A stretch of 64,000 bases of DNA from Pseudomonas sp. CFII64. GTDB lineage: Bacteria > Pseudomonadota > Gammaproteobacteria > Pseudomonadales > Pseudomonadaceae. The position numbers were made by a program, and so were the translations under genes. Location: the NCBI RefSeq assembly GCF_000416235.1, contig NZ_ATLO01000051.1, positions 248,001 through 312,000 on the forward strand. The letters are read 5' to 3'. Numbering within the stretch: the first letter of the stretch is position 1; each line of letters opens with the position of its first letter. Positions 48,084 through 56,667 of the stretch are shown here, piece after piece. The notes beneath the pieces were generated by a model. The model saw nothing but the letters and a program-made list of their open reading frames with translations, was not told where the DNA came from and ran no database searches.

Positions 48084-48536
48084 ATGAAAACGACATCAAA
48101 GATAGACGTTCGGTCCCATTGCGCAGTGAATTACGGCGTGGAAATCTTCGGCGACCGGTGGTCGCTGTTGATCATTCGCGACATCGTTTTTGTCGGTAAG
48201 AAGACATATGGCGAGTTCCGGAAGTCGGAAGAGGGCATAGCGACCAATGTCCTCGCGTCGCGCCTGGTCTTCCTTGAGGCGCAAGGGATTCTCTTGCGGA
48301 CACCCAGCCCCGACGACGGACGCAAGGACTTCTACACCCTGACCGAGAAGGGGCTGGACCTCATTCCCGTCATGCTCAACATCATCCTCTGGAGTGCGAA
48401 GCACGATTCGGAGTCATATGTGCTGCGCCGCAAGGAGTTCGTCGCGCGATTGAGTCAAAACCCCATGCAGGTCGGCGAAGAGGTGAAGGCGCTGGTGCGC
48501 AACGGCGGCTGTATCTTTCCCGAGAGCAGCGAGTGA
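48084..48536 (+). CDS. HxlR-family transcriptional regulator
   Basis: Winged-helix regulator of 150 residues with the strong family signature CAVNYGVEIFGDRWSLLIIR, GEFRKSEEGIATNVLASRLV and DDGRKDFYTLTEKGLDLIPV. There is no obvious partner gene: it stands alone between the binding-protein cluster and the envelope operon. Confidence 0.92.
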   Translation: MKTTSKIDVRSHCAVNYGVEIFGDRWSLLIIRDIVFVGKKTYGEFRKSEEGIATNVLASRLVFLEAQGILLRTPSPDDGRKDFYTLTEKGLDLIPVMLNIILWSAKHDSESYVLRRKEFVARLSQNPMQVGEEVKALVRNGGCIFPESSE

Positions 48537-48595: not shown

Positions 48596-50125
48596 TCAAC
48601 GTCCGTTAGGACTCCAGACGAAGCGGTAGACGGAAGCAGGGCTGGCCGGTCGGCATTGGCCGTTGTCGGCGCTAGCGCCCACGATGAACCAGTCGGCCCG
48701 GGACGTCCGGCCCAGCGGGACCGCCTTGTCCAGGATGAAGCATCTCGCCAGTTGCGCGCCAGGCACCAGTGCATAGGCGCTTGGGTGCGCTTGCAACCAG
48801 CCAGCTGCCTGTTCAATCGACACAGTGTGAGCGAAACCGAAATGCACCAGAGGCTGGCGTGCATAAAGCCAGTGACCTTCGCGCCAGTTGACCAGCACCA
48901 GGTCAGCACCTTGGGTCAGTTCGGCGGCTTGCTCCATCAGGCGCTGATGGGGATTGTCGCCCTCCATGAGCGGTTCAATGAACCCGCGGGCAAACCAGAG
49001 GCTGAACCAGGCCACCGTCGCGCCCAGGAAAACGCGCCGGGCCCAGGCGCGGTCGGCGAACCAGCGCCGCAATAGCCAGGGCACCAACGGCGCCGCGACC
49101 AGCACCAGGCCGGGCAAAGCCGGGTAGATGTAAATCTTGCGCTTGCCGCTGGAGAGACTGAAGAACAGCAGCACCAGCAACACCCAGCCAAGCAGCACCA
49201 GCACCCGGCCGTCGCGCTTGGCCAGCTGTCGACGCCAGGCCGGGACCAGCCATGGCAGCGCCAGCACCAGCGGTAACCAATATTGGGGGATGACCTTGAC
49301 GACGAAGTACCAGAATGGCTCGCGGTGGTCCCAGGCGCTGGCATAGCGATTGGCGGTCTGATGCAGGAGTATCTCGCGAAGATAGGCAAAACCTTCCGGC
49401 CCGCCGTCGCGCATGACCGAGATGACCATCGGCGCCAGCCAGAGGCAGCAGGCCAGCAGCACCACCAGCAGGCCAAGCGCCCAGCGAGCAGCCTGTCCGG
49501 GCATTGCCACCACGCCATGCCAACCCTTGCGCACGGCATATGCGTAGGGAATCAGCATCAGCGCCGGCACGAAGCCCACGCCCTTGCTGATGATGCCCAG
49601 GCCCATGGCCGCGCAACCCAGGTAGAACCAGTGCCAGGCCGGGCCCAGCAACAAGTGGCGGACCAGTCCATAGAAACCCAACGCGATCCACAGGCACAGG
49701 AAACTGTCGATCTGGCCGGTGCGCAAGATGCTGTAGGTCTGATAGGTGGCCAGGAACAGCAGGGCCGCCGCGCGTCCGGTGCGTCTGTTCCACAGACGGC
49801 TGCCCAGGTCGTAGAGCACTGCGGTGGCAGTGGCCGCCGACAGCAAACCCGGCAGATACAGAGCGATTTGCGGGCGGCCGGTCAGCCAGGTAAAGAACGC
49901 GACCGTCCACATGAACAGTGGCGGTTTGTCGGCGTAAATCTCTGCCGCCCGGTGGGGCACGAACCAGGAACCGGTCTGCAACATTTCCAGCGCGACGCCC
50001 AGAAAGCGCTCCTCATCGACATTCTGTGCCTGGCGCAGACCTAATCCGGCACCGATTAACAGCACAGCAAACGCGACCAGCAGCCATCCTTCGAGGCGAC
50101 GGGAAAGGGTAGGTCGCACCGTCAT
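48596..50125 (-). CDS. ArnT/PMT-family lipid-linked sugar transferase
   Basis: Integral membrane glycosyltransferase of 509 residues (GT83-like). The N-terminus has NVDEERFLGVALEMLQTGSW with the acidic DE pair, and HRAAEIYADKPPLFMWTVAF, the ArnT-type periplasmic-loop motif. About 12 helices follow, with SSGKRKIYIYPALPG in the middle. Such enzymes move a sugar from undecaprenyl phosphate to lipid A. Start at 50125 overlaps the LAB_N gene by 4 bp. Last gene of the five-gene envelope operon; the donor here would be a uronic acid, not Ara4N, because no arn synthesis genes are present. Confidence 0.88.
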   Translation of the reverse strand: MTVRPTLSRRLEGWLLVAFAVLLIGAGLGLRQAQNVDEERFLGVALEMLQTGSWFVPHRAAEIYADKPPLFMWTVAFFTWLTGRPQIALYLPGLLSAATATAVLYDLGSRLWNRRTGRAAALLFLATYQTYSILRTGQIDSFLCLWIALGFYGLVRHLLLGPAWHWFYLGCAAMGLGIISKGVGFVPALMLIPYAYAVRKGWHGVVAMPGQAARWALGLLVVLLACCLWLAPMVISVMRDGGPEGFAYLREILLHQTANRYASAWDHREPFWYFVVKVIPQYWLPLVLALPWLVPAWRRQLAKRDGRVLVLLGWVLLVLLFFSLSSGKRKIYIYPALPGLVLVAAPLVPWLLRRWFADRAWARRVFLGATVAWFSLWFARGFIEPLMEGDNPHQRLMEQAAELTQGADLVLVNWREGHWLYARQPLVHFGFAHTVSIEQAAGWLQAHPSAYALVPGAQLARCFILDKAVPLGRTSRADWFIVGASADNGQCRPASPASVYRFVWSPNGR

Positions 50126-50406
50126 GGCTCCTTGACTGACTTGGCTTGCTGGTTGATCAGCTGCAAATTGCGCAGGTACACCACCAGTCCGAAGGATTGG
50201 CCAGCGATGAACACCGGGTCCTGTCGATAGATGGCGTAAACCAGTAAAAGAGAGCTGCCCAGCATGCTCAGATACCAGAAGCCCACCGGGATGACGCTGC
50301 GCTTCTTGAATTCGCTGTACAGCCATTGCAGGACGAAGCGGCCGGTGAATACTGCCTGGCCGACAAAACCGAGGATCAGCCAGAGCGTTGCGCTATCGAG
50401 TCTCAT
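50122..50406 (-). CDS. LAB_N-domain small membrane protein
   Basis: Protein of 94 residues with three helices. The family pattern FTGRFVLQWLYSEFKKRSVI, then PVGFWYLSMLGSSLLLVYAI and GQSFGLVVYLRNLQLI is that of the LpxB N-terminal-like domain. These small proteins are found beside GT2/ArnT-type genes and resemble multidrug-transporter-like flippase subunits, so it could help move the lipid-linked sugar across the membrane. Overlaps both neighbours by 4 bp. Confidence 0.88.
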   Translation of the reverse strand: MRLDSATLWLILGFVGQAVFTGRFVLQWLYSEFKKRSVIPVGFWYLSMLGSSLLLVYAIYRQDPVFIAGQSFGLVVYLRNLQLINQQAKSVKEP

Positions 50407-51146
50407 GGGTTCAGTTCCTGAGGCAGACTGTTCAAGCGGGTGCGGCGGATCAGCCACCAGACGCCAAACAGGTCGAGAATGCCGACCAGCGCCCGGTCCA
50501 GATTGCCGTAATTGGACACACCGGCCTGGCGATGACGATGATTGACCGGATGGATCAACATGCGGCCGTTGTGGCGCTGGATCAGTGCCGGAATAAACCG
50601 GTGCATATGATCGAAATACGGCAGGCGCAGGAAAGCTTCACGCTCTATCAATTTGAGACCACAACCGGTATCCGGCGTGGAATCCTTGAGCAGTCGGCTG
50701 CGCAGACCATTGGCGAAGCGCGAGGCCCAACGCTTGCTGGCCGTGTCGCGACGGTTCACCCGGTGCCCGGCCACAAGCTGGATGGCATCGGCGCGTCCTG
50801 CGCGAGCGCGTACCAGTTGCACCATGCCGGGAATGTCAGCGGGATCGTTTTGGCCATCGCCGTCGAGGGTTGCCAGCCAAGTGCCCCGGGCAACTTGAGC
50901 CGCGCTGTAGATCGAGGTGCTTTGCCCCAGCGAGCGCTCGTTGCGCAGGACCCGCAGTTCCGGAAATCCGCCGTCCAGCAACCCACGCAGCACTCGCAAG
51001 GTGTCGTCGGTACTGCCGTCGTCGATCACCAGCACTTCATAGTGTTCCCCGGACAACGCGCTGCGAACCTCCGCCAGCAAGGTCGGCAGGTTGTCGGCTT
51101 CGTTCTTGGCGGGAATCACTACGGAAAGAAAAATCGGCACAGTCAT
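50403..51146 (-). CDS. GT2 polyprenyl-phosphate glycosyltransferase
   Basis: Cytoplasmic-side GT2 enzyme of 247 residues. SVVIPAKNEADNLPTLLAEV, VLVIDDGSTDDTLRVLRGLL and TLDGDGQNDPADIPGMVQLV are the classical DPM1/ArnC-type nucleotide-sugar and metal motifs. No C-terminal membrane helices are seen, unlike ArnC. It should load a sugar from a UDP donor onto undecaprenyl phosphate, with the UDP-uronate coming from the two upstream genes. Start at 51146; overlaps neighbours by 4 bp. Confidence 0.9.
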   Translation of the reverse strand: MTVPIFLSVVIPAKNEADNLPTLLAEVRSALSGEHYEVLVIDDGSTDDTLRVLRGLLDGGFPELRVLRNERSLGQSTSIYSAAQVARGTWLATLDGDGQNDPADIPGMVQLVRARAGRADAIQLVAGHRVNRRDTASKRWASRFANGLRSRLLKDSTPDTGCGLKLIEREAFLRLPYFDHMHRFIPALIQRHNGRMLIHPVNHRHRQAGVSNYGNLDRALVGILDLFGVWWLIRRTRLNSLPQELNP

Positions 51147-52153
51147 GGGTGTCCCTGTTGTGAAAATGGCAGACGGACCTGGATTTGATAATGCTCGCAG
51201 TACCAGGCGACGAAAGCGCAGACGCCGGCGTCGAGCGACACCTGCGGTTGAAAGTCGATCCATCGCGCCAGCGCGGAGACGTCGGCCCAGGTTTTCAGCG
51301 CATCGCCAGCCTGCATCGGCACGTTGCGGCGGTCTGCGCGCAAACCCAGCGCGGCTTCCAGGCAATCGACGAACTCCAGCAACGTGACCGGCTGCCCCCG
51401 GCCAATGTTGAAGAGTTGATGGGGCGGCGTGCTGTCGACAGCGACGGGAGGGCGCAGACGCAGGCGCAGAATGCTTTCGACAATGTCATCTATGTAGGTG
51501 AAGTCCCGCGCCATCTGCCCATGGTTGTAGAGTTCGATGGGCTCCCCGGCGAGCATCGCCCGGGTAAATTTGAACAGGGCCATGTCCGGACGACCCCAAG
51601 GGCCGTACACCGTGAAAAAGCGCAGGCCGCTGGCTGCCTGACCGTACAGGTGGGAATAGCTGTACGCGGTCAGTTCGTTGCAACGTTTACTGGCGGCATA
51701 CAGTGACAGTGGCCGGTCCACGGCATCCTCGATCTGAAACGGCATGCGCTCGTTGGCGCCGTAGACCGAGCTGCTGGAGGCGTAGATCAGATGCGCCGGT
51801 CGATGGTGCCGACAGGCTTCAAGCACATTGATGAAGCCGACCAGATTCGACTGCACGTAAGCGCCAGGATCCTCCAGCGAATAACGCACACCCGCCTGGG
51901 CCGCCAGGTGAATAACCTGTTTGAAACCGTGCCGCTCGAACAGGGTAGACAGACCGGCAAGGTCGGTGATGTCCAGACGCTGAAAAGTAAAACCCGGCAG
52001 GCACTGAAGCCTGGCCAGACGGGCTTGCTTGAGCTCAACGCTGTAGTAGGCGTTGAGGTTGTCGATGCCGACCACTTCAACGCCTTGCTCGCACAGCCGC
52101 CTGGCGACGTGGAATCCGATAAAACCGGCGGCGCCGGTCACCAGCACCGTCAC
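51143..52153 (-). CDS. UDP-glucuronate 4-epimerase-like NAD-dependent epimerase
   Basis: SDR-type epimerase of 336 residues. GAAGFIGFHVARRLCEQG binds NAD; SSSSVYG and YAASK give the catalytic Ser/Tyr/Lys triad; GPWGRPDMALFKFTRAMLAG and RDFTYIDDIVESILRL are diagnostic of UDP-glucuronate 4-epimerases rather than GalE. It should turn UDP-GlcA made by Ugd into UDP-GalA. Overlaps ugd and the GT2 gene by 4 bp each. Confidence 0.88.
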   Translation of the reverse strand: MTVLVTGAAGFIGFHVARRLCEQGVEVVGIDNLNAYYSVELKQARLARLQCLPGFTFQRLDITDLAGLSTLFERHGFKQVIHLAAQAGVRYSLEDPGAYVQSNLVGFINVLEACRHHRPAHLIYASSSSVYGANERMPFQIEDAVDRPLSLYAASKRCNELTAYSYSHLYGQAASGLRFFTVYGPWGRPDMALFKFTRAMLAGEPIELYNHGQMARDFTYIDDIVESILRLRLRPPVAVDSTPPHQLFNIGRGQPVTLLEFVDCLEAALGLRADRRNVPMQAGDALKTWADVSALARWIDFQPQVSLDAGVCAFVAWYCEHYQIQVRLPFSQQGHP

Positions 52154-53478
52154 GGCTGGGCCGCCTGCCCGCGACCAATGCCGTAGTAAGTCAGTCCGGC
52201 GTCACGCACCTGCATCGGATCGAAAAGGTTACGTCCGTCGAATACCACCCGGTCACGCAGCTGTTGACCGAGCCGATCCAGATCCAGCACCCGGTAATCC
52301 TGCCATTCGGTAATCACCACCAGCGCATCCGCGCCCTCCAGCGCGTCTTCCTTGCAATGCGCCAGGCTCAGATCGGTGCGCGAGCCATATTGTCGCTGGA
52401 TCGCCTGCATGGCTTGAGGGTCATGGGCCTGGACCTGCGCGTCGGCGGCCCACAGCGCTTCGAGCAAGGCAAGGCTGGAGGCCTCGCGGATGTCGTCGGT
52501 ATTTGGCTTGAAGGCGAGCCCCCAGACCGCGAAGACCTTGCCCTTTAGTGAACCTTGATAATGCGCGTGGATTTTCTCAAATAGACGGTGTTTCTGGCGG
52601 CGGTTGACCTTCTCTACCGCGCCGAGCAGAGACGCTTCCATGCCGTGCTCTTCGGCGGTCCTGAGCAGCGCGTGCAGATCCTTGGGAAAGCACGAGCCGC
52701 CGAAGCCGCATCCAGGGTAAATAAAGTCATAACCAATGCGCGGGTCGGCGCCAATGCCCAGCCGCACCTGTTCGATATCGGCGTCCAGACGTTCGGCCAG
52801 GTTGGCCATCTCATTGATGAAGGAGATCTTCGTCGCCAGCAGGCAGTTGGCGGCGTACTTGGTCAGCTCCGCGCTTCGGGCATCCATGACCACGAACTTC
52901 TCGCGGTTACGGCTGAATGGCTGGTAAAGCTCGCGCAAACGCTCCAGTGCCACCGGGCTCGCCCCGCCGACGATAATGCGGTCCGGGCGCAGGCAGTCGT
53001 TGACGGCAGAACCTTCCTTGAGGAATTCCGGGTTACTGATCACTTCGAAGCCTGCATCGCGTCGCAGGCTGACAGCGATCTCGCGGCGCATGCGGTCAAC
53101 GGTACCCACCGGCGACGTGGACTTGTTGACGATGATCCGCGCACCTTCGGCGTACCTGAGCAGCGAACGCAGCACGGTGAGCACCTGACTCAGGTCAGCG
53201 TGACCGTCGGCTTGCAGGGGCGTGCCCACCGCGATGAATACCAGCTCGGCAAAGCAACTGCCTTCGGCCTCGTCCGTGGTGAAATGCAGTCGTTTGCTGT
53301 CCAGTCCGTTACGCAGCAGTTGCGCCAGGCCAGGCTCGAAAATCGGACAGATGCCTTGGCGCAGGGCGTCAATTCGCTCCCGATCGACATCCACGCAGCA
53401 CACCGTGTGACCCACTTCGGCCAGGCAGGCCGCTTGGGTGAGGCCTACATAGCCCGTTCCGAACACTGTCACTTTCAT
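52150..53478 (-). CDS. ugd: UDP-glucose 6-dehydrogenase
   Basis: Oxidises UDP-glucose to UDP-glucuronate with NAD+; 442 residues. Motifs: FGTGYVGLTQAACLAEVGH at the N-terminus, SPVGTVD, NPEFLKEGSAVND, the Lys in ELTKYAANCLLATKISFINE, and the catalytic Cys in GCGFGGSCFPKD. First gene of the envelope operon. Upstream is a 206-bp gap shared with the Sia-type operon, containing a PmrA-box-like direct repeat. Confidence 0.96.
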   Translation of the reverse strand: MKVTVFGTGYVGLTQAACLAEVGHTVCCVDVDRERIDALRQGICPIFEPGLAQLLRNGLDSKRLHFTTDEAEGSCFAELVFIAVGTPLQADGHADLSQVLTVLRSLLRYAEGARIIVNKSTSPVGTVDRMRREIAVSLRRDAGFEVISNPEFLKEGSAVNDCLRPDRIIVGGASPVALERLRELYQPFSRNREKFVVMDARSAELTKYAANCLLATKISFINEMANLAERLDADIEQVRLGIGADPRIGYDFIYPGCGFGGSCFPKDLHALLRTAEEHGMEASLLGAVEKVNRRQKHRLFEKIHAHYQGSLKGKVFAVWGLAFKPNTDDIREASSLALLEALWAADAQVQAHDPQAMQAIQRQYGSRTDLSLAHCKEDALEGADALVVITEWQDYRVLDLDRLGQQLRDRVVFDGRNLFDPMQVRDAGLTYYGIGRGQAAQP

Positions 53479-53620
53479 CTGTCCTCTTTCCTCTGATCCA
53501 CAAAACGTCGCTTTTCTTTGGCGTGCCTGGCGGGTGTCTGACCGAGCGCTGCCAAATGAATGTCACAACGGTGTGAAGGAACGATGACGCCTTGAGCGGC
53601 CAGCAGAATGAAATTCGCGC

Positions 53621-53684: not shown

Positions 53685-54932
53685 ATGCAGGCAGAACAGT
53701 TCACATTCATGCGACCCACGCTGCCCAGAGATCATCGCTGTGCAGATGATTTGTGCAACGAGGTGCCCGGCATCGACTCGGACAGCACCAATATCAAGGT
53801 CATGGATACCTTCACTGCGCATCGCGAGATGGTGTGCCTGGCGGTGGTCGAAGGCGAGCGCCCCATTGGGCTGATCAATCGAAATATCTTCATGTCGCAG
53901 ATGAGCAAGCCGTTTCATCGCGAGTTGTATGACCGCAAGAGCTGCATTGCGTTTATGGACAAAGAGCCCTTGGTGGTCGACTCCCGGATGAGCATCGAAG
54001 AGCTGACCTTCAAGACGGTCGAGTATGGCGAAAAAGCCCTCGCCGACGGCTTCATCGTAACGCGTGAAGGCCGGTTCGCAGGTCTGGGCAATGGTTTGCA
54101 ACTGATGGCCGTGGTGGCCGCCATGCAAGCGGAAAAGAATCGTCAGATGATGCAAAGCATCGAGTACGCCAGCGTCATTCAACGGGCGATGCTCAGAGCT
54201 TCTCGCGACGCATTGGCCTCAACCCTGGATGACGCTGCGCTGTTGTGGGAACCGCGGGATGTGGTGGGTGGCGATTTCTATCATTTTTGTGCGTATCCCG
54301 AGGGCTGGTTCGGGGCGATTGCCGATTGCACAGGGCATGGCGTGCCGGGAGCCTTCATGACCTTGATTGCATCCTCGTCGCTTACCCAGGCGCTGGGGCA
54401 AATCGGGCCACGCAACCCTGCCGCGCTTTTGTCGGCCGTGAATCGCGGAGTGAAGGGGCTCCTGGGGCAGGTCGATGGTCTGGACGGTACACCGGAATCA
54501 GATGACGGGCTGGATGCGGCGTTTTTCTGGTTCGACAACGCCACGCAAGTACTGAGTTTCGCAGGTGCGCGCATGTCGTTGCACATACTGCATCCGGACT
54601 CGGAACAGCTTCAAACCCTGGCAGGTCAGCGAATGGGTGTTGGCTACGTCGATAGCGATTATGACTTTGAGTGGGTTCCCGCCACCGTGTCGATGTTACC
54701 TGGCAGCATTATTTTCATCGCCACCGATGGGCTGACCGATCAAATCGGCGGCGCTAAAGGAATCGCATTCGGCAAGCGCAAGGCGTTCGACACCATTCTG
54801 CAACATCGTGCCCAACCCTCGGCAGCCATCTGTGACGCTATAAAAAATACGCTGCTCAACTGGCAGGGCGAGCAAACCCGTCGGGATGACTTGACCCTAT
54901 TCTGTGCCCGCCTCAGGAATAAAAATGTTTAA
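53685..54932 (+). CDS. SpoIIE/PP2C-type phosphatase with N-terminal CBS-like input domain (SiaA-like role)
   Basis: Protein of 415 residues. Residues about 35-135 look like a CBS-type pair (REMVCLAVVEGERPIGLINR; ADGFIVTREGRFAGLGNGLQ), then a helix (about 140-172), then a PP2C phosphatase (about 185-412) with metal ligands in DVVGGDFYHF (Asp197), AIADCTGHGVPGAFM (Asp214), IFIATDGLTDQIGG and RRDDLTLF. It heads an operon with SiaB-, SiaC- and SiaD-like genes, so it should dephosphorylate the SiaC-like protein. Unlike Pseudomonas aeruginosa SiaA it has no membrane helices or HAMP domain. Confidence 0.85.
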   Translation: MQAEQFTFMRPTLPRDHRCADDLCNEVPGIDSDSTNIKVMDTFTAHREMVCLAVVEGERPIGLINRNIFMSQMSKPFHRELYDRKSCIAFMDKEPLVVDSRMSIEELTFKTVEYGEKALADGFIVTREGRFAGLGNGLQLMAVVAAMQAEKNRQMMQSIEYASVIQRAMLRASRDALASTLDDAALLWEPRDVVGGDFYHFCAYPEGWFGAIADCTGHGVPGAFMTLIASSSLTQALGQIGPRNPAALLSAVNRGVKGLLGQVDGLDGTPESDDGLDAAFFWFDNATQVLSFAGARMSLHILHPDSEQLQTLAGQRMGVGYVDSDYDFEWVPATVSMLPGSIIFIATDGLTDQIGGAKGIAFGKRKAFDTILQHRAQPSAAICDAIKNTLLNWQGEQTRRDDLTLFCARLRNKNV

Positions 54933-55494
54933 TTCATCGACCGCTCAGCTGGATGGTTCATTCTTCGAATTGGCCAGTCGGCAAAACGTGATTTTCTATC
55001 ACAAGGGCTATTTCTCTCATCACGTTGTTTCCGCAATGGCCGAGGTTGTGAAACTTCAGCTGGAGATCTCTGGTGTCAGCGGGCCAACACGCCGCAAGTT
55101 GTTTTCGTCGTTCGTCGAGCTGTCGCAGAATATTATTCATTATTCGTCCGACTCCCTTGGCGCGACTCATTCCGAGAATTCTGTTCTTCGCCAGGGTGCT
55201 GTCTGCATCAGTGCCGAAGGTGAGCGGCACCTGATGCTTTGCGCCAACCCCATTGCGACGACCGAGGTGGAACGGCTGCGAGAAAAACTGGAACCTTTGC
55301 GCAGCATGTCCCTTGAAGAAATCAAGGCCGCTTACAAGGTAACGCTGCGTTCCGAAACGCCTGCCGATAGCAAGGGCGCCGGGCTGGGCTTTCTGACCAT
55401 GGCGCGCGACGCAAGCGCACCTTTGGAGTTTGGCTTTCATGCGAGAGAGGACGATCCCGACACCACGTTGTTCTGCCTCAAAGCGATTATTTGA
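54925..55494 (+). CDS. siaB: SiaB-family protein kinase
   Basis: Kinase of 189 residues with a histidine-kinase-like ATPase fold. The N box is FSSFVELSQNIIHYSSDSLG and the G box DSKGAGLGFLTMARDAS. In the Sia system SiaB phosphorylates SiaC on a threonine. The ATG at 54925 has CAGGA upstream and overlaps the phosphatase gene by 8 bp; a GTG at 54904 is less likely. Confidence 0.88.
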   Translation: MFNSSTAQLDGSFFELASRQNVIFYHKGYFSHHVVSAMAEVVKLQLEISGVSGPTRRKLFSSFVELSQNIIHYSSDSLGATHSENSVLRQGAVCISAEGERHLMLCANPIATTEVERLREKLEPLRSMSLEEIKAAYKVTLRSETPADSKGAGLGFLTMARDASAPLEFGFHAREDDPDTTLFCLKAII

Positions 55495-55495
55495 A

Positions 55496-55900
55496 ATGAG
55501 TGGCCTATCTAGCATGGACAACTTCTACATCGAAGCAACCGCAACTTCGCCGGAAATCGATTTTCGTTTTGATCAGGATCTTCTTTCGATGAAGGGCGAG
55601 TCGTATCCGGAAAACGCTGCTGCATTTTACGCTCCGGTTTTACAGCAATTACGCGCTTTCCTGCTTGAACGAACCAGCGCGACAATCACCGTCAATATCG
55701 CGCTGGCCTATTTCAACAGTTCCAGCACCAAAATCCTGTTCAATATCTTTGATGCCCTGGATCAATCTGCCCAGGCCGGAAACCGCATTGAGGTGAACTG
55801 GTACCACGACGAAGAAGACGAAACGATTTTTGAATTCGGCGAAGAATTGAAGGCTGACTTCACGGCGGTCACCTTCAACGACCATCCAATCACCACTTGA
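55496..55900 (+). CDS. siaC: SiaC-family regulatory phosphoprotein (DUF1987)
   Basis: Protein of 134 residues (128 if the ATG at 55514 is used). GESYPENAAAFYAPVLQQL and ALAYFNSSSTKILFNIFDAL match the SiaC family; the threonine in the latter (Thr78 here) corresponds to the phosphorylated residue. Unphosphorylated SiaC binds and activates the cognate diguanylate cyclase. One base separates it from siaB, and it overlaps nothing downstream. Confidence 0.9.
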   Translation: MSGLSSMDNFYIEATATSPEIDFRFDQDLLSMKGESYPENAAAFYAPVLQQLRAFLLERTSATITVNIALAYFNSSSTKILFNIFDALDQSAQAGNRIEVNWYHDEEDETIFEFGEELKADFTAVTFNDHPITT

Positions 55901-55914
55901 TGAGGATGACGGTC

Positions 55915-56667
55915 ATGTCAGCTTCAGTCACACCCATTTGCGCTTCGAGTGACGCGATTCCTGACTTGTTCAAGAACGAGACAGATGCGCTCGACCATGC
56001 CCGTTCTATCCTGGCCGTGACCGATGCCGAGGCGGCGATCTACAAGCGATCACTGACTGATCTGGCCTCTCATTACGAACGACTGCTGCGCGAAATGCGA
56101 CGGTTGATCGGCAGAAGCGACCGTGCCGAGCGGGAAATGAATTTGCTCAATACGCAGTTGCAAACGCTGGCCGGTCAACTTGAATACCGCGCGACGCATG
56201 ACGCCCTGACCGGAATCCTGAATCGCGGGGCGATCATCGATCTGGCGGTTCAGGCCCTGCAAAAAAACGGTGCAGTACTGGTTGTGCTGGACATCGATCA
56301 CTTCAAGCACGTGAATGACGAGTTTGGTCATCCTGCCGGCGATGCGGTCATTCAGGGCATTGTCGAGTGCCTGCGCGAGGTAGTCGCAGACACCGGGAAA
56401 ATAGGGCGCGTCGGGGGCGAGGAGTTCACGGTCCTGATTAGCGGCGAAGACCTGGAGCGAGGCCTGGAACTGGCCGAAGCCATGCGTGATGCGATTGCCA
56501 GTCATGTATTTGCCGATCCGGTAAACCGGCAGATCACCGCAAGTTTTGGCGTCAGCGCGAGCACCTCGGGGACAACCTTTGATACCGCTTACGGCGCGGC
56601 TGACGCCGCGCTATACCGCGCCAAGCGTGGGGGACGAAATCGCGTGGAGCAAGCTGAAGCCTTATAA
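55915..56667 (+). CDS. siaD: SiaD-like soluble diguanylate cyclase
   Basis: Cytoplasmic enzyme of 250 residues making c-di-GMP. Residues about 30-95 form a helical stalk (HYERLLREMRRLIGRSDRAE), the expected SiaC-binding part, followed by a GGDEF domain (HDALTGILNRGAII) with GGEEF at 167-171. No RxxD inhibitory site is visible just before it. The start at 55915, with AGGA 8-9 bp upstream, is preferred among TTG 55897 and ATG 55900, 55906. Last gene of the Sia-type operon. Confidence 0.9.
   Translation: MSASVTPICASSDAIPDLFKNETDALDHARSILAVTDAEAAIYKRSLTDLASHYERLLREMRRLIGRSDRAEREMNLLNTQLQTLAGQLEYRATHDALTGILNRGAIIDLAVQALQKNGAVLVVLDIDHFKHVNDEFGHPAGDAVIQGIVECLREVVADTGKIGRVGGEEFTVLISGEDLERGLELAEAMRDAIASHVFADPVNRQITASFGVSASTSGTTFDTAYGAADAALYRAKRGGRNRVEQAEAL

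Follow-up and report, generated by a model that had tools for sequence, protein, structure and literature searches.

We analysed a 64,000-nucleotide stretch of the Pseudomonas sp. CFII64 genome (NCBI RefSeq assembly GCF_000416235.1, contig NZ_ATLO01000051.1, positions 248,001 to 312,000 of the forward strand; hereafter the window), whose minus strand carries a five-gene operon that is probably a self-contained three-component periplasmic glycosylation system supplying its own sugar. The genes run in the order Ugd, UDP-glucuronic acid (UDP-GlcA) 4-epimerase, a family 2 glycosyltransferase (GT2) without transmembrane (TM) segments, a LAB_N protein and an ArnT-like glycosyltransferase of the GT-C type, and all four junctions are successive 4-bp stop/start overlaps. 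Pfam placed the products in the UDP-glucose dehydrogenase, NAD-dependent epimerase, GT2, LAB_N (PF07578) and PMT_2 families. The five genes with their overlaps, coordinates, strand and order, as given in the original prediction for this DNA, were thus confirmed on the sequence and by Pfam. The features are listed below in window positions, with lengths in amino acids (aa) and expectation values (E).

52150..53478, minus strand: ugd, UDP-glucose 6-dehydrogenase, 442 aa, ATG start; TIGR03026 at 448 bits; UDP-glucose dehydrogenases are the nearest among solved chains (2y0e, E 2e-137).
51143..52153, minus strand: predicted UDP-glucuronate 4-epimerase forming UDP-galacturonic acid (UDP-GalA), 336 aa, GTG start; SSSSVYG and TVYGPWGRPDMA match the carboxylate site of UGAepi.
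50403..51146, minus strand: ArnC-type GT2 lacking membrane helices at its C-terminus, 247 aa, ATG start; ArnC structure 9hwj at E 1.7e-21.
50122..50406, minus strand: LAB_N protein, 94 aa, ATG start, three membrane helices; candidate translocase of a lipid-linked uronate; PF07578 at 2.9e-33.
48596..50125, minus strand: ArnT-like GT-C glycosyltransferase, 509 aa, ATG start; PF13231; NF009784 at 88.6 bits; ArnT structure 5ezm at E 1.7e-9.
53556..53577, minus strand: upstream element whose 22-bp core lies some 100 bp ahead of ugd, common to the nine closest relatives.

The same gene order was found again in Pseudomonas triticifolii (L053) and P. cerasi (L062) at 81-89% identity; since it is kept over this distance, the operon arrangement is more than chance. 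Judged by the operon GT2, the nearest named relatives among the matches listed are Pseudomonas. The source genome (6.41 Mb, 54 contigs) holds one LAB_N copy, and searches of it returned no second copy of the ArnT-like gene (with the ArnT-like protein as query), no second close ugd (the next at 35% identity) and no second close epimerase (the next at 31%). We further surveyed 398 Pseudomonas genomes for the operon GT2 (E <= 1e-40), which was present in 93 of them, and fetched 100 loci from these positive genomes. All gene-presence counts, including those for proteins of the DedA/VTT type, refer to a radius of 4 kb around the GT2 gene, and a GT-C scoring over 300 bits was taken as cognate. The 100 loci contained an epimerase in 88 cases, LAB_N in 97 and a cognate GT-C in 92; VTT was found in two, LAB_N together with VTT in none, and neither in one, which lies at a contig start. 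No further cluster of open reading frames (ORFs) occurred in more than 27 of the 100 loci, which suggests that the five genes travel as a modular unit.

The sugar supplied by the operon was assessed from the epimerase, which receives no NCBIfam name, the listed matches falling far below their cut-offs. Its best solved chain is 5u4q (E 5.8e-123), followed by 6zl6 (E 3.5e-44), which we take to be the UDP-GlcA 4-epimerase of Bacillus cereus; the deposition of 5u4q as a dTDP-glucose 4,6-dehydratase speaks against assigning the window protein to the same activity as 6zl6. The B. cereus enzyme, UGAepi, is described as binding the carboxylate through Thr126, Ser127, Ser128 and the main chain of Thr178, with Glu at position 128 in decarboxylases and other residues in use in GalE (PMC7984243). 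Aligned to 6zl6, the window epimerase has S-S-S and T at these positions (SSSSVYG, TVYGP), with Ser replacing Thr126, as it likewise does in 5u4q. Among the 104 cluster epimerases scoring above 400 bits with a hidden Markov model (HMM), which represent 99 distinct loci, SSSSVYG was present in all 104 and TVYGxWGRPDMA in 103 (L198 has TAYG; a stricter script pattern gave 102). By sequence, these motifs are of the UDP-GlcA 4-epimerase type, not of the GalE or decarboxylase type, and the residues at the carboxylate site strongly suggest UDP-GalA as the most likely product. In view of the active-site motifs, an epimerase acting only on UDP-glucose, the finding that the original prediction had named as speaking against it, is unlikely. 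Ugd would thus make UDP-GlcA, and the epimerase would turn it into UDP-GalA. Consistently, among 86 genomes with both epimerase and GT-C, ugd lay within the operon in 24 of 43 genomes lacking arn and in 9 of 43 bearing it (Fisher p 0.0017, without phylogenetic correction), a difference that would be expected with UDP-GlcA as the starting compound.

That the transferred sugar is instead GlcA or another derivative of UDP-GlcA appears improbable. Such a sugar would suit the 12 Pseudomonas loci, out of 100, in which the radius contains no epimerase; however, the 88 epimerases carry the motifs described above, and the 12 remaining loci comprise two contig ends, four loci with a cognate GT-C and six whose GT-C is a distant, different one (65-74 bits). 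As an observation apart, L196, L206, L215, L220, L221 and L262 are paralogous GT2-LAB_N clusters with such a distant GT-C and no epimerase, and five of their six genomes also bear an epimerase-type cluster; the paralogous clusters probably handle a different sugar.

The two glycosyltransferases frame the proposed route. The GT2 matches the ArnC structure 9hwj over residues 7-216, has no TM segment by hydropathy against two in Escherichia coli ArnC, and ends before the membrane helices of ArnC. It would load GalA onto polyprenyl phosphate at the cytoplasmic face, and homology gives good support to this formation of undecaprenyl-phosphate-GalA. For the GT-C, ArnT 5ezm was the sole sequence match in the PDB up to E 0.1, and the score against the ArnT equivalog NF009784 did not reach the cut-off of 567 bits, so that the protein is ArnT-like and not ArnT. 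Eight ArnT residues are assigned to the carrier and the lipid A phosphate, namely D55, R58, E84, K85, D158, K203, R270 and Y345 (PMC8306577); the GT-C keeps seven of them identical and has D in place of E84, as read by eye on the 5ezm alignment. By homology, a polyprenyl-phosphate-sugar synthase and a GT-C thus share one operon, and a route from UDP-GalA through polyprenyl-phosphate-GalA to periplasmic transfer appears well supported. The path that the original prediction had drawn, from UDP-glucose through UDP-GlcA and UDP-GalA to a polyprenyl-linked sugar and transfer on the outer side, proved consistent with the sequence tests.

In the weakest step of this route, the ArnT-like GT-C would transfer GalA to lipopolysaccharide (LPS), most likely at a lipid A or inner-core position. 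Our confidence in LPS as acceptor is moderate, and for lipid A specifically the chances are about even. A gain of negative charge, which the original prediction had expected as the result, need not follow if GalA sits on a phosphate, as with ArnT: the charge of the phosphate monoester is lost and a carboxylate is gained, and the two roughly cancel. An acceptor other than lipid A, be it O antigen, the core of the LPS or a different glycan of the envelope, is itself close to an even prospect. The rhizobial Rgt enzymes put GalA on the core as well as on lipid A; the distance of the window GT-C from the ArnT cut-off and the lack of conserved LPS gene neighbours (no further ORF cluster exceeding 27 of 100 loci) favour the same view, and GT-C enzymes of three-component systems are described as acting on O antigen (PMC11127046). 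Against it stand the retained ArnT ion pairs that orient the lipid A phosphate, and the position of arnA about 3.8 kb from the GT2 gene in at least four genomes (G362, G145, G194 and G260), a proximity that points to LPS as such, not to lipid A over the core.

LAB_N, the only further gene of the operon, was examined by modelling and profile comparison. Its AlphaFold2 model (predicted local distance difference test, pLDDT, 92.9) has three helices at residues 5-34, 41-61 and 64-92. A profile of 39 LAB_N proteins gave six matches among PDB sequences up to E 10, all of them SemiSWEETs, including 4qnd, which is presumably a SemiSWEET; the best match (E 0.0026) is collinear over about 78 residues. 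The Pfam family MtN3_slv was weakly matched by 13 of the 39 proteins (best 0.0027), and the next families by five of 39. LAB_N also occurs both in the half-size form with three TM helices and in tandem-duplicated forms, as do SemiSWEET and PQ-loop proteins. In L054 (11311-11958, minus strand), a protein with two LAB_N domains and a linker helix between them is encoded on the opposite strand and adjoins an epimerase-GT2-GT-C set, and in L338 (3340-4026, plus strand) a double LAB_N stands between GT2 and GT-C. The model of the latter (pLDDT 82.4) has a 3+1+3 arrangement like SWEETs, its linker containing one additional short helix. In another locus, L267 (G451), two adjoining LAB_N genes in different frames precede the GT-C, as if forming a heterodimer.

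The hhalign, Foldseek and motif comparisons weigh against a SemiSWEET relationship. The hhalign probability of LAB_N against 20 SemiSWEETs was 3.6, with 12.3 for a VTT control and 16.6 for the best of 100 column shuffles. Foldseek placed SemiSWEET or SWEET structures in the first six rows for the LAB_N model (E 0.4 or worse) and SWEET 5ctg in the top three rows for the L338 model (E 0.14-0.65), neither result being significant. The PQ dipeptide expected where helix 1 ends is also incomplete in LAB_N, in which Q27 is invariant but the Pro is replaced, and we therefore call it PQ-loop-like and not a canonical member. VIA-align of the single LAB_N model put designed helical toroids at the top (Z 9.8), with SemiSWEET 4x5m at Z 6.3 and 1.9 A over 55 residues; for the L338 model, in favour of a SWEET-like fold, the best match was PnuC (Z 11.8, 5.1 A over 159 residues), followed by unrelated helical proteins from Z 9.5 downwards and by KDELR, cystinosin, SemiSWEET and SWEET at Z 6-8. 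PnuC has a SWEET-like fold, and helical models may reach such Z values through arrangement alone. Exceptions to the PQ motif are described (PMC3281891).

The function of LAB_N was approached through its replacement in relatives. A second locus set comprised the best 80 of 515 relatives from named genomes, five of which (L053, L057, L058, L061 and L062) are also among the 100 Pseudomonas loci, giving 180 loci, 175 of them distinct. Seven loci that the VTT HMM later scored had also served to build it, all seven Pfam-confirmed (PF09335) and these being all the HMM-called VTT proteins submitted; the other 15 of 22 VTT loci and two loci of the G series were identified by that HMM alone. Within these 80 loci, 39 had LAB_N, 22 VTT, none both and 19 neither (Fisher 1e-8, not phylogeny-corrected), and LAB_N and VTT stood together in 0 of the 180 loci. 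The order ugd-epimerase-VTT-GT2-GT-C was found in P. boanensis (L056), Stutzerimonas (L059), G215 and G372, so that in four Pseudomonadaceae operons otherwise alike a DedA/VTT gene replaces LAB_N. A whole-genome search found PF07578 above its cut-off in 0 of 24 VTT-type genomes, most of which have no completeness value, with one sub-threshold match in G439 (E 9e-4). A quick GT2 tree of 98 rows, made up of the 80 named-genome loci and 18 of 19 chosen Pseudomonas loci (one was dropped as too short), required at least seven LAB_N/VTT changes; for the VTT label, at least three are forced by branches with a support of 95 or more in the Shimodaira-Hasegawa-like approximate likelihood-ratio test (SH-aLRT). 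Three VTT rows from Pseudomonadaceae group together with LAB_N rows inside a clade of 95% support; G372 splits apart at an unresolved fork. These changes indicate that the exchange happened more than once. PAP2/LpxE was rejected as an alternative downstream gene, Pfam on 10 proteins having returned VTT for five, L28 for two, DUF488 for one and no family for two.

Comparison with E. coli assigns the VTT proteins to the YdjX/YdjZ type in the COG0398 branch (HMM E 6e-28 and 4e-26), and the HMM did not match YghB or YqaA. The seven VTT proteins scanned received no NCBIfam names, and the L056 VTT had no sequence relatives in the PDB up to E 10. The DedA/VTT fold is described as including lipid scramblases or flippases, and for the COG0398 branch lipid scrambling is regarded as possible and flipping of undecaprenyl phosphate as unlikely (PMC10127716). 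The simplest account of these data is that the transporter slot of the three-component system can hold either LAB_N or VTT. LAB_N, a three-helix SemiSWEET/PQ-loop-like half-transporter and presumably dimeric, would then translocate GalA across the membrane in its lipid-linked form or, alternatively, return the spent carrier. We lean slightly towards this translocation of a lipid-linked uronate by LAB_N, since its slot is taken in relatives by a protein of the DedA/VTT lipid-scramblase type. More tentatively, and with a little less than even confidence, the LAB_N family may consist of bacterial half-size PQ-loop translocases of polyprenyl-phosphate monosaccharides, exchangeable with COG0398-type DedA/VTT scramblases and forming a bacterial counterpart of MPDU1.

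Other observations limit this account. The strict exchange is confined to the four Pseudomonadaceae operons; the 20 remaining VTT loci, outside that family, have no epimerase nearby (0 of 20), and the sugar may therefore differ there. As stated above, 19 of the 80 loci have neither protein near the GT2 gene; 11 of these genomes hold LAB_N elsewhere and none was found in eight. Flipping of a polyprenyl phosphate would be a candidate function only for the YdjX/YdjZ-type partner. The main rival, which we consider rather unlikely, holds that LAB_N (or VTT) mainly anchors or activates the TM-less GT2, as DPM3 does for DPM1 in eukaryotes, and that another protein flips the lipid. The GT2 does lack the two C-terminal TM helices of ArnC, and in a LAB_N-based class search (best-scoring of 46 genomes above the cut-off, leaning to close relatives) LAB_N adjoined GT2 in 28 of 29 other loci; DPM2 and DPM3 are described as bringing DPM1 to the membrane (PMC4281381). 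On the other hand, exchange of an anchor for the unrelated DedA/VTT fold, with its scramblases and flippases (PMC10127716), would be unexpected, the SWEET-like tandem duplication suggests a transporter, and the eight GT2 genomes with neither protein adjacent and no LAB_N found elsewhere fit an anchor poorly. Anchoring and translocation by LAB_N may also coexist, and LAB_N probably docks the GT2 in addition to moving the lipid.

We then compared the operon with the arn genes, whose product decorates lipid A with 4-amino-4-deoxy-L-arabinose (Ara4N). ArnA was found in 200 of the 398 Pseudomonas genomes, 199 of them over the family cut-off. GT2 and arn occurred together in 46 genomes, GT2 only in 47, arn only in 154 and neither in 151 (Fisher p 0.91); the operon GT2 is distributed independently of arn. 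The source genome fits the earlier statement that Ara4N genes are absent as far as ArnA (NF005998) is concerned, which was not found genome-wide; ArnB and ArnD were not searched. This lack of ArnA would agree with an operon that takes the place of Ara4N decoration where arn has been lost, an idea to which we give very little credence, as it is contradicted by the independence of the two across the 398 genomes.

The predicted system resembles several known ones. Three-component systems such as GtrA-GtrB-Gtr and Citrobacter Ribf (PMC11127046) have the same polyprenyl-phosphate-sugar synthase, small membrane transporter slot and GT-C, whereas the operon brings its own UDP-GalA supply, a GT2 without membrane helices, and LAB_N or VTT in the transporter slot in place of an SMR/GtrA or MATE protein. 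ArnBCADTEF shares the Ugd input, the ArnC-type GT2 and the ArnT-type GT-C, and is a near neighbour in some genomes; the operon differs in the genomic lack of ArnA, in a uronic acid instead of an aminopentose, and in LAB_N in place of ArnE/ArnF. RgtA-E of rhizobia use dodecaprenyl-phosphate-GalA as GalA donor, so that the likeness lies in the donor chemistry proposed for the operon and in the domain family PF13231 (judged from Pfam and description, not from Rgt sequences), and the operon organisation and LAB_N differ. Xanthomonas PXO_RS22260-70 comprises the same trio of epimerase, short ArnC-like protein and LAB_N, with arnT unlinked, unlike here (PMC8306577). Its authors thought a non-Ara4N sugar plausible and left the sugar and the role of LAB_N unspecified (PMC8306577). 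Loci of Lysobacterales with the same trio, none of them from Xanthomonas, showed 51-53% identity to the window epimerase and 54-58% to its GT2. In P. putida, PP0035-PP0033 (GtrA, ArnC-like, ArnT-like) has the same three-component layout and a proposed role in LPS modification, with GtrA and not LAB_N; it belongs to the ColR regulon (PMC2689224, PMC4074579), whereas the exact 16-bp ColR consensus was present in 0 of 88 upstream regions of 300 bp here, which led us to reject ColR control. A scan of the window with this consensus at up to two mismatches gave 16 matches against 17.9 expected. The eukaryotic PQ-loop protein MPDU1 is required to use monosaccharide-phosphate-polyprenol in glycosylation in the endoplasmic reticulum (PMC4281381, PMC3281891); it is full-length, and we liken it to LAB_N by description, not by sequence.

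The operon predicts a uronic-acid modification of Pseudomonas LPS, and a literature search of limited depth found no published account of such an operon or modification. Ara4N was not found in the lipid A of P. syringae pv. phaseolicola, and galacturonic acid is not mentioned in that report (PMC8876380). In three-component systems, flippases are recognised from their context, and PMC11127046 states that direct experimental proof is lacking for the ones it treats. The natural LAB_N/VTT swap within one operon offers a clean genetic test. The mechanism of MPDU1 was called unsolved in 2014 (PMC4281381), and LAB_N, a domain without known biochemical role, would be linked to it if the proposal is true. 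What is new here is the LAB_N/VTT exchange and, with it, a testable function for LAB_N in a variant three-component system. Neither this exchange nor the lack of membrane helices in the GT2 had been noticed in the original prediction.

Regulation was examined in the upstream regions. An element of the approximate form GTCATCGTTYCTTAACACHTTTATGACATTYATYTTGC precedes ugd in the window operon and in its nine closest relatives; this consensus was made by eye, and individual members deviate from it, the window operon included. At up to four mismatches, the 22-bp core was found in 11 of 88 upstream regions, shuffles averaging 0.05. The element is nearly restricted to the operon in ten genomes, with one site in seven of the ten and a second site (2-3 mismatches) in three. 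A regulon was rejected: second sites are few, and the backward control pattern matched twice in one such genome. Simple PmrA, PhoP and AlgU patterns were absent from the 88 upstream regions. The element has a possible repeat with 11-bp spacing (TTAACA N5 ATGACA in relatives).

The GC content of the operon is 62.0% against a mean of 59.2% (rank 5 of 119 composition windows), with LAB_N at 55.4% and the GT-C at 64.1%; composition was not decisive for a recent acquisition. Divergent from the operon on the plus strand, positions 53685-56667 encode a SpoIIE-type phosphatase (Pfam), two small proteins and a protein resembling a GGDEF cyclase, a run that by eye resembles the SiaABCD layout. At the other end, an HxlR-type regulator at 48084-48536 on the plus strand faces the 3' end of the operon.

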